Source: Meiothermus sp.
GTDB lineage: Bacteria > Deinococcota > Deinococci > Deinococcales > Thermaceae
Length of the DNA: 54,707 bases
NCBI RefSeq assembly: GCF_025060375.1
Contig: NZ_JANXCG010000021.1
Coordinates: forward strand, 1-54,707
Direction: 5' to 3'
This document shows, piece after piece, positions 2,329-6,248 of the stretch. Position 1 is the stretch's first letter, and the number at the start of each line of letters is the position of its first letter. A model generated the notes under the pieces. That model ran no database searches and was not told where the DNA came from. It was given only the letters and a program-made list of their open reading frames with translations. The position numbers and the translations under genes are program-made.

Positions 2329-2420
2329 TGGCGGAGGAGGAGGGATTCGAACCCTCGATAGGGGGAGACCCCTATACCGGTTTTCGAGACCGGCCCGTTC
2401 AACCACTCCGGCACCCCTCC
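2329..2420 (-). tRNA. tRNA-Ser (anticodon CGA)
   Basis: Class II tRNA of 92 bases including an encoded CCA end (2331-2329). The acceptor stem GGAGGGG pairs with CTCCTCC, the D stem is CCG/CGG, the anticodon stem CCGGT/ACCGG closes the 7-base loop CTCGAAA with anticodon CGA, the long variable arm forms TAGGGG/CCCCTA, and the T arm is GAGGG-TTCGAAT-CCCTC. The discriminator base is G, as expected for serine. It reads UCG. It lies just downstream of the tilS-tadA gene on the same strand. Confidence 0.96.
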
Positions 2421-2458
2421 GGGCCGGATAAAGACTCTAGCACAACCGAGGCCTCATG

Positions 2459-4021
2459 TCACGGGGTGCGCTTTTGGGAAAAGAAGCCCTTTAGGAGCCT
2501 GGTGGCGTCCCGCTCGAGCCAGCCACCCTCCCAGGCGAAGGGGGGGGTAAGCCGGTGTACGGTGAGGGCCCCGGCCTTCAGGTTTTCCACCGCATAGACC
2601 ACCCGCCGCACCTGCGCCTCGGCCAGGGCCCCAAAGCACATCGGACAGGGCTCCAGCGTTACGTAGACGGTAGCCCCAGGTATGACCTTTTCGCCCTTTT
2701 TGAGCAGCGCTTGGTGCAGCGCTAGAAGCTCGGCGTGGGCGGTGGCGCTCCGCAGGTGTTCCACCTGGTTGTGAGCCCTGGCAAGCACCTGGTCGTCCTG
2801 CACCACCACCGCGCCGATGGGCACCTCTCCTTTTTTCTCGGCCCGCTCTGCTTCGCTTAGGGCCATCCGCATGTACACGAGGTCCTCGGGCTCAGGCCAG
2901 AGGTTCCAGACCTCCTGGACCTCCTCACCCACGGCCCGCACCGGCCAGACCTGCTTGAGCTCGGGGGGCACCCCATGCCCGGCCAGGAAATCCACCAGTC
3001 GGACCCGCCCGGTAGGGAGATGGATCTGGTCCCCGGGTCTGGGGAGCCTTGAGCCGCGCCAGGGGGGAAAGCTCTCCACCACCGGGGGAATGAGGAAGAG
3101 CGTTCCATCGCGTCGGCGAACCTGCCAGCCTCCGGGCAGGGTAAAGGCCTCGCCCTGCAGGGCCCGCTCGAGCTGGAGTATCCAGCTGCTCTCGGGCCGC
3201 ACCCCAACCTCCTCCAGCATCTGCCGCAGGGCCCGCCGCCGGAGGCCTGGGGGGGCTTGTAGCAGAGGGGCGACCCGGTAGGCTGGGCAGGGCCAGCGTC
3301 GGTCGGGCAGCAGGAGCAGGCGGGCCAGGGGGTCCAGCGCCTCATCCTCGACCTGGGAGATGCCCGCGAAGCGGGCCAGCGCGGCCTGGGCTTGCGGGAA
3401 GCGCTCGGCTAGGCGGGGCAGGATTTCTTGGCGCAGGAAGTTGCGGTCGAGGGTTACGTCAGCGTTGGTGATGTCCTCGAGCCAGTCCTGGCCCTTACCC
3501 CTCAGGTACTCCCTCAGCGTCTGGCGGCTTATCTCCAACAGGGGGCGCACCACCTTACCCCGCTTGGGCCGCATCCCTAGGCCCCTTCCGGTGCCCTGGA
3601 GGAGCTGCAGGAGCACCGTTTCAGCCTGGTCGTCCTCGGTGTGGGCGGTCAGAACCGCCTGGGCGCCGTGCTTTTTGGCTACTTTGGCTAAAAAGCCGTA
3701 GCGCAGCTCGCGGGCAGTGGCCTCGAGGTTCCCCCCCCGCTCGGCCGCGATACGGGCTACCTCGAGCCGCTCCCCCTCAAAGGGATAGCCCAACCGCTCG
3801 GCCAGGGCCTTGACCCACAGGGCGTCGCGGGCCGAGTCTGGCCGTAGGGCATGGTCTAGATGGGCCACCACCACCTTGCGAGGGGTGGAGGTGAGCAGGA
3901 GGAGCAGCGCTACCGAGTCCCCCCCACCCGAAACCGCTGCCACCAGCACGCCCTCGGGCACCAGGCGGGTCAGGTGGTTGGCGAACCAGGCCTCGAGCCT
4001 TTCCAGGTCGGTTGAGTCCAC
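2459..4021 (-). CDS. tilS-tadA: Bifunctional tRNA(Ile)-lysidine synthase / tRNA adenosine deaminase fusion
   Basis: 520-residue fusion of two anticodon-wobble enzymes. Residues 1 to about 370 are TilS, which joins lysine to C34 of tRNA-Ile(CAU) with ATP; the PP-loop SGGGDSVA is at 31-38 and the HTEDDQAETVLL motif of the family follows near 126. TilS keeps its C-terminal domain (RPGDQIHLP onward). Residues from about 384 are a full TadA, the zinc deaminase making inosine 34 in tRNA-Arg(ACG): HAE at 429-431 (zinc ligand and proton-shuttle Glu) and PCPMC at 458-462 (two zinc Cys). The GTG start at 4021 lies 6 bases from a TAGCAT box. No frameshift is seen between the halves. I recall similar fusions in Thermus, but could not check. 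Confidence 0.93.
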   Translation of the reverse strand: MDSTDLERLEAWFANHLTRLVPEGVLVAAVSGGGDSVALLLLLTSTPRKVVVAHLDHALRPDSARDALWVKALAERLGYPFEGERLEVARIAAERGGNLEATARELRYGFLAKVAKKHGAQAVLTAHTEDDQAETVLLQLLQGTGRGLGMRPKRGKVVRPLLEISRQTLREYLRGKGQDWLEDITNADVTLDRNFLRQEILPRLAERFPQAQAALARFAGISQVEDEALDPLARLLLLPDRRWPCPAYRVAPLLQAPPGLRRRALRQMLEEVGVRPESSWILQLERALQGEAFTLPGGWQVRRRDGTLFLIPPVVESFPPWRGSRLPRPGDQIHLPTGRVRLVDFLAGHGVPPELKQVWPVRAVGEEVQEVWNLWPEPEDLVYMRMALSEAERAEKKGEVPIGAVVVQDDQVLARAHNQVEHLRSATAHAELLALHQALLKKGEKVIPGATVYVTLEPCPMCFGALAEAQVRRVVYAVENLKAGALTVHRLTPPFAWEGGWLERDATRLLKGFFSQKRTP

Positions 4022-4024
4022 GCC

Positions 4025-4037
4025 TATATGCTATAGA
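4025..4037. promoter_or_regulatory. Overlapping divergent -10 boxes for tilS-tadA and truD
   Basis: The 18 bases between the GTG of tilS-tadA (4021) and the ATG of truD (4040) contain TATGCT on the plus strand (4027-4032, 7 bases before the ATG) and TAGCAT on the minus strand (4033-4028, 6 bases before the GTG). Both would yield leaderless mRNAs and only one polymerase could open this DNA at a time. No good -35 box is visible for either. Confidence 0.5.
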
Positions 4038-4039
4038 GG

Positions 4040-5113
4040 ATGGTCTCCTTGCGCTTCGACTTTAACGCCTATCCCTACCTGACGGCCGACCTGCCTGGGG
4101 TGGAAGGGGTCATCCGCAGCCGTCCAGAGGAGTTCCAGGTCTGTGAGGTGCCAGCCTACCTGCCCAGGGGGGAGGGCGAGCACCTGTTCTTGCTCCTGGA
4201 AAAAAGGGGTCTGACCACCCGGGCAGTGCTGGAGTTTCTGCGCGACCGCCTAGGGGTTTCCGAGGAACAGATTGGGGTGGCTGGGCTCAAAGACAAGCAC
4301 GCCCTCACCCAGCAGTGGATTAGCCTTCCCTCTCGCTACGAGGCCAGGCTGGAGGTTCTGCAGGAGCTGCCGGGGCTTCGGCTCCTGCACTGGGCGCGCC
4401 ACCCCCACAAGCTCAGGGTGGGTCACCTGAAGGGCAACCGTTTTCGCATCCTCATCCGCGGAGCCACGGCGCCGGATTCGGCCGAACGGGTAAGGGCTGT
4501 GCTGAGCCGGCTGGCCCAGCAGGGGGTGCCCAACTACTACGGCCCTCAGCGGTTTGGCCTCGGCGGTTTGAACCCGCAGAAGGGCTACGCCCTGGCCACC
4601 CGGGGCAAGGCCCACACCCCCCCTTGGCTTGGGAGGTTCCTGCTGGCCAGCCTGCAGAGCCTCCTCTTCAACGACTGGCTGGCTTTGCGGATGAAACTGG
4701 GCCTTTTTGACCGGGTGGTGGAGGGTGATGTGGCCAAGAAACACGACACTGGAGGGGAGTTTTGGGTGGAGGACGCTGGAGCGGAGAACCCGCGGGCCCA
4801 GCGCTTTGAGATTAGCGCCACCGGTGCCCTTTTTGGCAGGAAGTACAGGGAGGCTCGGGGCGCGGCCCGCGCCCTAGAGGACCAGGTGTTGGAGAAGTAC
4901 GGCCTTACCCGCCAGCACTTTGCCCGCCGCAGGGGCGACCGCCGCCCCATCCGCCTGCCCCTTACGGAGTGGGATGTGGAGGCGGTTCCTGAGGGGGTTT
5001 GGGTTTCCTTTTTTCTGCCCAAGGGGGCCTACGCTACAGCGGTGCTGCGTGAGGTGATGAAGCGCGACCCTGAGGCCCGGCTCGAGGAGGAGCCCCTGGC
5101 CGAGGACCCCTGA
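4040..5113 (+). CDS. truD: tRNA pseudouridine synthase D
   Basis: TruD of 357 residues, which isomerises U13 of tRNA-Glu and others to pseudouridine. Family marks are the early segment VEGVIRSRPEEFQVCEV and the catalytic motif GVAGLKDKHALTQQWISLP near residue 80, where Asp of the GLKDK motif is the nucleophile. The NYYGPQRFG motif around residue 158 is also diagnostic. Divergent from tilS-tadA with an 18-base spacer; both modify tRNA, so the pair may be kept together for function. The ATG at 4040 is the only reasonable start upstream of the domain. Confidence 0.95.
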   Translation: MVSLRFDFNAYPYLTADLPGVEGVIRSRPEEFQVCEVPAYLPRGEGEHLFLLLEKRGLTTRAVLEFLRDRLGVSEEQIGVAGLKDKHALTQQWISLPSRYEARLEVLQELPGLRLLHWARHPHKLRVGHLKGNRFRILIRGATAPDSAERVRAVLSRLAQQGVPNYYGPQRFGLGGLNPQKGYALATRGKAHTPPWLGRFLLASLQSLLFNDWLALRMKLGLFDRVVEGDVAKKHDTGGEFWVEDAGAENPRAQRFEISATGALFGRKYREARGAARALEDQVLEKYGLTRQHFARRRGDRRPIRLPLTEWDVEAVPEGVWVSFFLPKGAYATAVLREVMKRDPEARLEEEPLAEDP

Positions 5114-5167: not shown

Positions 5168-5659
5168 ATGGTTGAGCCTGCCGTCGCGCTCTTCGGGGAG
5201 GCCTACGAGAAGGCAGCCCGTGTCCTCGAGGAGCTTTTGCGGGAGAGTGGGGCCCGCTACACCCTGCTGCTGGACCGCAAGGGGTTTGTGCTGGTTCACA
5301 AAGAGGCGTTGTGGGCGCCTAAACCCCCTGCCCTGGACTCCCTGGCCACCCTGATTGCAGGCAACGCTGCGGCTACCCAGGCTCTGGCCAGAATGTTGGG
5401 CGAGCCCCGCTTCAACGAGCTGCTGCACCAGGGATCCACCCATGGGCTGTACGTGGAAGAAGTGGGTGAGCTGGCCCTGCTGGTGATCGTCTTTGACAGC
5501 TCGGCCCCGGTGGGTCGGGTCAAGCTGTATGGGAAGCGGGCTGCGCAGGCCCTGGAGGGCATTACCCAGGAGGCAGTGGTCAGCCCCGGCACCTTGGGGA
5601 TTGACAGCGAGTACCGAGAGGGGGCGAGCGCCCTTTTAGACGAGCTGTTCGGGAACTGA
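5168..5659 (+). CDS. mglB: MglB-like roadblock/LC7 protein, activator of MglA
   Basis: 163-residue roadblock/LC7 domain protein. In Myxococcus and Thermus the MglB dimer binds the small GTPase MglA, stimulates its GTP hydrolysis and sets which cell pole is active; structures of the Thermus complex define the family. The domain starts around residue 15 ([19 protein letters not shown]), with the hydrophobic strand [13 protein letters not shown] and a second strand LALLVIVFD typical of roadblock folds. The gene stops one base before mglA begins, so the two are translated together and the regulator comes first. In Thermaceae the pair is probably linked to polarity and type IV pilus twitching; that role is inferred. 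Confidence 0.9.
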
Positions 5660-5660
5660 A

Positions 5661-6248
5661 ATGAGCACGATTAACTTTGCCGCAAGGGAGATCAACTTCA
5701 AGATTGTCTACTACGGCCCGGGTATGTCTGGGAAAACCACCAACCTCAAGTGGGTTTTCCAGCAGATACCCCAGAACCGCAAGGGGGAGATGGTCTCGCT
5801 GGCCACCGAGGACGAGCGCACCCTTTTCTTTGACTTTCTCCCGGTGGACTTGGGGGAGGTCAAGGGCTTTAAGACCCGTTTTCACCTCTACACGGTGCCG
5901 GGCCAGGTCTTCTACAACGCCAGCCGCAAGCTAATCCTGCGTGGGGTGGATGGCATCGTGTTTGTGGCCGACTCAGCCCCCAACCGCCTGCGGGCCAACG
6001 CTGAGTCCATGCGCAACCTGCGCGAGAACCTGGCCGAGTACGGCATCAAGCTCGAGGACATCCCCATCGTGCTCCAGGCCAACAAGCGGGACACCCCCGA
6101 TGCCCTGCCGGTGGAGATGATTCAGGCCGTGATAGACCCCGAGAAGCGCTTCCCCATTTTCGAGGCTGTAGCCACCACCGGAATGGGGGTCTTTGAAACC
6201 CTCAAGGCAGTGAGCCGCGAGGTGCTCTCGCGGGTGGCCTCGAGCTGA
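5661..6248 (+). CDS. mglA: MglA small Ras-like GTPase
   Basis: 195-residue GTPase. P-loop [10 protein letters not shown] at residues 19-28, the PM3 region reads TVPGQ in place of the DxxG of Ras, which is the MglA signature, and the base-specificity motif is NKRD near residue 142. The final SA-like motif is [10 protein letters not shown]. It is the switch protein of cell polarity; MglB from the preceding gene is its activator. The start ATG at 5661 follows the mglB stop by one base, with translation likely coupled. Nothing else motility-related is in the window. Confidence 0.95.

Follow-up and report, generated by a model that had tools for sequence, protein, structure and literature searches.

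Bacterial TilS and TadA act on the wobble bases of different tRNAs: the substrate of TilS is tRNA-Ile2(CAU), while that of TadA, which is active as a homodimer, is tRNA-Arg(ACG). Known TilS structures are 1ni5 from E. coli, 1wy5 and 2e21 from A. aeolicus, and 3a2k, a TilS-tRNA structure, and the known TadA structures (2b3j from S. aureus, 1z3a from E. coli, and 7cph from B. subtilis) are of stand-alone proteins. TilS has also been annotated as a fusion with a second enzyme, in the TilS/HprT bifunctional protein of Listeria, but the partner there is a purine salvage enzyme and not a tRNA-modifying one. Here we describe a gene in the window (the whole 54,707-nucleotide stretch of Meiothermus sp. 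DNA that was analysed) that joins TilS to a TadA deaminase; its domain architecture is presumably visible in databases such as UniProt. A TilS-TadA fusion is undescribed in the non-subscription full text that we searched, which included passages of PMC6313347, PMC10454642, PMC7694415, and PMC8879553.

The coordinates that the first-pass annotation had given for this gene are correct, and its strand, absent from that annotation, is minus (Table 1). Pfam identified an ATP_bind_3 PP-loop domain (residues 27-199, E = 4.5e-48), a TilS substrate-binding domain (residues 250-309, E = 7.1e-5), and a MafB19/TadA-type deaminase domain (residues 381-517, E = 1.9e-31); the C-terminal phosphoribosyltransferase expected of a TilS/HprT protein is absent from the window fusion, the deaminase taking that place. 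Among NCBIfam models, TIGR02432 (TilS_N) scored 164.1 bits in the window fusion, above its cut-off of 93.6, and TIGR02433 (TilS_C) scored 13.3 bits at residues 328-361, under its cut-off of 20.2. All 33 fused relatives (the window fusion counted) match the PP-loop model and both deaminase models, and 17 of the 33, the window fusion not among them, match PF11734 (TilS_C); thus TilS looks complete, with a last domain that is short and divergent in the window fusion. The active-site residues of the TilS half (SGGGDS at 31-36, H54, H57, H127, D131, and E134) and of the deaminase half (N418, H429/E431, and C459/C462) are all present, and all except G34 are invariant in the 33 aligned fusions.

Table 1. 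Features of the tilS-tadA locus (positions in the window; residues are those of the fusion protein)
Feature	Position	Strand	Remarks
tilS-tadA fusion gene	2459..4021	minus	520 aa; GTG 4021-4019, TGA 2461-2459
TilS N-terminal PP-loop ATPase/ligase domain, residues 26-202	3416..3946	minus	TIGR02432; 2e21 superposition
SGGGDS ATP-binding PP-loop, residues 31-36	3914..3931	minus	all but G34 invariant in 33 fusions
TilS CTD1/substrate-binding domain, residues 250-309	3095..3274	minus	PF09179 23.4 bits (cut-off 21)
Putative TilS CTD2 (residues about 326-376; short and divergent)	2894..3046	minus	match to 3a2k reaches residue 376
TadA deaminase domain, residues 379-520	2462..2887	minus	Pfam; 2b3j superposition
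HAE zinc/catalytic motif, H429 and E431	2729..2737	minus	H and E in 50/50 fused and 30/30 stand-alone
PCPMC zinc motif, C459 and C462	2636..2650	minus	Cys pair in 50/50 fused and 30/30 stand-alone
N480, position of E. coli TadA D108	2582..2584	minus	Asn in 49/50 fused
tRNA-Ser(CGA)	2329..2420	minus	38-nt gap downstream of tilS-tadA; tRNA search
Predicted tRNA-Ser promoter GTGACA-17-TAGAGT	2434..2462	minus	consensus match only; first hexamer overlaps tilS-tadA stop codon

An AlphaFold2 model of the fusion (mean pLDDT 92.9, pTM 0.80) agrees with this layout. Its residues 3-311 superpose on 2e21 (Z 28.7, rmsd 2.4 Å over 301 residues) and the match to 3a2k continues as far as residue 376 (Z 25.0, rmsd 5.3 Å over 366 residues). 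The PP-loop domain and CTD1 are common to the fusion and known TilS; the putative CTD2, which this match includes, is short, divergent, and runs directly into the TadA domain. The latter superposes on 2b3j with Z 26.9 and rmsd 1.2 Å over 144 residues, and across the three stand-alone TadA structures the fold is shared at 1.2-1.3 Å over 144-146 residues, together with the zinc site, the catalytic Glu, the Asn46 equivalent, and the gate Lys/Phe. The earlier claim of one chain with two complete active sites is thus borne out by domains, fold, and catalytic residues alike.

We surveyed 111 genomes of the Thermus–Deinococcus phylum (Deinococcota), and a hand count of the search listing places both halves at one position in 97 of them (including G005 and G094, where the gene is truncated at contig ends). 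The fusion is broken in two others, by an apparent frameshift beside a run of C in G048 and by contig ends in G070; six rows of the listing were flagged with one stop, of which G010 was found to be open through the fusion. The remaining 12 genomes gave weak matches only, with no TilS_N above the cut-off. Five of the 12 keep a CAT tRNA 86-88% identical to tRNA-Ile2, which makes assembly gaps likelier than true loss. Completeness reaches 90-91% in two of the 12, however, and in one genus (g29), six of seven genomes (G099, G102-G105, and G107) have no TilS above the cut-off and only G106 has the fusion; assembly gaps are the likely explanation there, and real loss may be another. DdrB, which we take to be a Deinococcus-type marker, was matched in four of eight genomes of families f2 and f5, so the survey covered Deinococcaceae-like genomes. 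The fusion is accordingly found throughout the Thermaceae and in DdrB-positive, Deinococcaceae-like genomes, which answers the question of distribution raised with the original observation, and its recurrence in 97 of 111 genomes rules out a chance or assembly join.

Outside the phylum the picture is different: among the best 80 of 384 loci, 27 were fused, all assigned to the phylum (L093, the G050:C8 locus, counted within it), and none of the other 53 was (the scan patterns were derived from the Meiothermus protein alone, and two of the 53 have no phylum in their titles). Fused halves fall on one side of a branch in both trees, against 45 other sequences in the TilS tree (SH-aLRT 99) and against 31 in the TadA tree (support 83, not starred), which fits a single origin. 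Most likely, the fusion arose once, before the sampled Deinococcota families diverged, and a free tadA was then lost.

The source genome (2.39 Mb in 96 contigs, 99.8% complete) contains a single tilS-tadA copy, according to a full-length search. PF00383 matches two places in it, the fusion and a second gene that proved to be a cytidine deaminase; the stand-alone tadA whose presence would have weakened the first-pass reading was thus not found by this search. Forty-four tRNA genes were found, including Arg(ACG), Ile(GAT), and two CAT tRNAs, one of which we take to be initiator-like and the other to have a tRNA-Ile2-type anticodon arm; Arg-GCG, Arg-TCG, and Ile-TAT are not among the 44. An elongator tRNA-Met was also unrecognised in this set, probably through an assembly gap. 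Codons that depend on the two modifications are in use: in 37 window ORFs, chosen mechanically by length and GC3, CGU, CGC, and CGA together occur 551 times and AUA 42 times among 14,150 codons. Thus, if inosine 34 and lysidine are made in this organism, tilS-tadA is the sole candidate gene found in its genome for either.

tRNA-Arg(ACG) is present in all eight further genomes checked across the phylum, and in seven of them there is no additional PF00383 match resembling TadA; the eighth (G055) has a further deaminase (L331) that, compared with PDB sequences, could be either a guanine deaminase or a TadA. Extra deaminases of relatives were examined in 20 stretches. Two of these (from G054 and G048) are the fused gene itself, and the rest, judged by eye, are RibD or resemble deaminases of guanine, cytosine, or nucleosides, and not TadA. 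Two further proteins were compared with PDB sequences, of which the nearest is a guanine deaminase for L315 and a CMP/dCMP deaminase for L187.

Taken as a whole, we consider it highly probable (about 0.88) that the fusion is a bifunctional wobble-base enzyme and the sole source found for both modifications in the source genome, although we infer both activities, and any benefit of joining them, from sequence. The TilS part would ligate lysine to C34 of tRNA-Ile2(CAU), allowing AUA to be decoded, and the C-terminal TadA part would convert A34 of tRNA-Arg(ACG) to inosine, which reads CGU, CGC, and CGA. By analogy with homodimeric TadA, two copies of the fusion protein probably pair through their TadA domains.

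Why the two enzymes share a chain is another matter. The suggestion that fusion channels tRNAs has to be given up, because TilS and TadA use different tRNAs and no substrate is common to both; fixed stoichiometry, suggested at the same time, is possible. It is almost an even call whether the fusion is simply a neutral accident of adjacent genes, kept by drift, with uncoupled active sites: the two activities (which may both be real under this explanation) have no substrate in common, no coupling mechanism is apparent, and other phyla are served by separate TilS and TadA, but no genome with a split gene was seen apart from G048 (the apparent frameshift) and G070 (the contig break). Nature here offers a case in which to ask whether a shared chain benefits two essential tRNA enzymes whose substrates are unrelated.

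The deaminase half of this putative bifunctional enzyme has diverged from stand-alone TadA. We aligned 50 fused and 30 stand-alone TadA sequences (24 of the latter from 30 genomes outside the phylum and six from scanned loci; two stand-alone rows are identical) and numbered positions as in E. coli TadA. H57, E59, C87, C90, and N46 are kept in every sequence of both sets, so the earlier statement that all catalytic residues are retained is correct; the conserved RNA-contact loop of TadA, however, has been lost. This (N/H)H loop is common to TadA and ADAT3 (PMC9643335). At its second position (128), 27 of the 30 stand-alone sequences have H. By eye, the motif (127-128) is in place in no fused sequence (G054 has HW): WKR-type letters stand there in Trueperaceae-like fusions, and in Thermaceae fusions the pair has gone with a deletion. 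A loose motif flag reported 'NH' in fused L068, L091, L092, and L143, where by eye the letters lie outside the loop position. Because the loop pair is missing, we classify the fused half as a divergent TadA domain. R98, found in 30/30 stand-alone sequences, remains in 4/50 fused ones, and position 108 is D in 18, E in nine, and N in three of the stand-alone sequences vs N in 49 and S in one of the fused sequences; Asn108 is therefore not unique to fusions, being found in those three stand-alone TadAs and in 2nx8 as well. A change at position 108 is also one of the founding changes of adenine base editors; together, Asn108 and the loss of the loop bear on how TadA recognises RNA. In G050 (L093/L320), HGE replaces HAE and Ser stands at position 108. 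The window fusion scored 93 bits against the TadA equivalog model NF008113, under its cut-off of 150, a shortfall that is not decisive, since the cut-off is a naming rule, reached in no more than 15 of the 30 other genomes.

Both halves are under purifying selection, judging from low dN/dS (Nei-Gojobori): against the nearest relative (94%) the values were 0.024/0.353 for TilS, 0.044/0.600 for the middle, and 0.045/0.533 for TadA, and two Thermus-type pairs gave 0.154/0.419 and 0.045/0.373 for TadA. Five wider Meiothermus comparisons were made, and in four of them dN was higher for TadA than for TilS.

The fused TadA resembles eukaryotic ADAT2 (of ADAT2/3) in two respects, a likeness read from published text and alignment rather than from complexes: ADAT2 has N157 where fused TadA has Asn (by residue arithmetic from K106 of SaTadA = R159 of TbADAT2; PMC9643335), and it too is without the RNA loop common to TadA and ADAT3. 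In ADAT2/3, the partner of ADAT2 is catalytically inactive. A doubtful proposal is that the Deinococcota TadA dropped its RNA-contact loop and gained an ADAT2-like Asn108 while the fused TilS came to hold its tRNA, converging on the ADAT2/3 plan of a deaminase with added tRNA-binding domains; that TilS compensates for the lost loop is speculation. If true, the TadA half on its own should be poor at binding or deaminating tRNA-Arg, and both wobble reactions would rely on TilS as a common platform that holds the tRNA.

It is improbable, although compatible with a bifunctional enzyme, that in Thermaceae translation can also begin inside the gene, at the former ATG of TadA, so that some of the TadA works unfused. 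In 31 fusions, SD-like runs (AGGAGG matched at four or more bases in a row) are found before 26 of 67 start codons at the junction vs 113 of 978 other internal starts (the L092 junction was misplaced by the motif used), and in the window GAGG precedes V382 and M384 (2865-2890, minus strand); but acidic codons (GAG GAC, GAG GAG) make such runs anyway, the control is unmatched for this, and most Trueperaceae-like junctions lack the runs.

A 2022 review (PMC8879553, section 7) reports that T. thermophilus has no TadA, considers that it may read CGN with unmodified A34, and regards it as possibly an evolutionary intermediate on the way to inosine decoding. Among the genomes surveyed, G032 has an MglA identical to PDB 3t12 at 192 of 194 residues (175-183 of 194 in the other 12 g5 genomes compared). 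We take 3t12 to be a T. thermophilus protein, which would make G032 a very close relative of that species. G032 has tRNA-Arg(ACG) and three PF00383 places (the fusion, RibD, and a cytidine deaminase), and the zinc motifs of its fused TadA are intact. The TadA half of the G032 fusion reaches 81.5 bits where NCBIfam requires 150 for TadA, whereas the TilS half is above its own cut-off, so a name-based survey would see TilS only; this is probably why the Thermus TadA was missed. With a fused TadA apparently present in Thermus, the basis for an evolutionary intermediate is removed. It is very improbable that the TadA half no longer forms I34, and instead helps TilS to dimerise or to bind tRNA or acts on another substrate, while Deinococcota read CGN with unmodified A34: the missing loop and R98, Asn at 108, and the reported absence of TadA speak for this, but the zinc ligands, catalytic Glu, and N418 equivalent in 50/50 fused sequences, the low dN/dS, the tRNA-Arg(ACG) of 8/8 genomes with no Arg-GCG found in the source genome, and a naming cut-off from which such a report is to be expected all speak against it.

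The neighbouring tRNA-Ser named in the first-pass annotation is tRNA-Ser(CGA), on the same strand as the fusion. Among the 81 loci that we compared, 59 have it 3′ of the fusion gene, and in 34 of these 59 the tilS-tadA stop codon is inside the tRNA gene: in 26/26 loci of g5 (Thermus-type), 6/6 of g19, 1/1 of g3, and 1/2 of g4 (loci L066-L073, L197, L264-L282, and L288-L293). The overlap is 22-23 nt long (47 in G043), and the overlapping proteins end in EGCRSG (32 loci), EGCQSG (G020), or otherwise (G043). Elsewhere there is a gap, of 3-4 nt in g12 (5/5), 11 nt in g8, and 38-327 nt in 15 of 18 Meiothermus-type loci, the window being at the lower end. One tRNA-Ser promoter is predicted in the window, vs a mean of 0.0 in shuffles. 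Where the genes overlap, RNase P cutting a joint transcript would strip the stop codon; the overlap itself may be mere compaction. On the other side of the fusion gene, 18 bases (4022-4039) separate its start from that of a divergent plus-strand gene at 4040, putatively truD (the name given by the first-pass annotation), and the plus-strand interval 5168-6248 holds an MglA gene (matching 3t12) with a possible MglB, judged by eye, just upstream of it.
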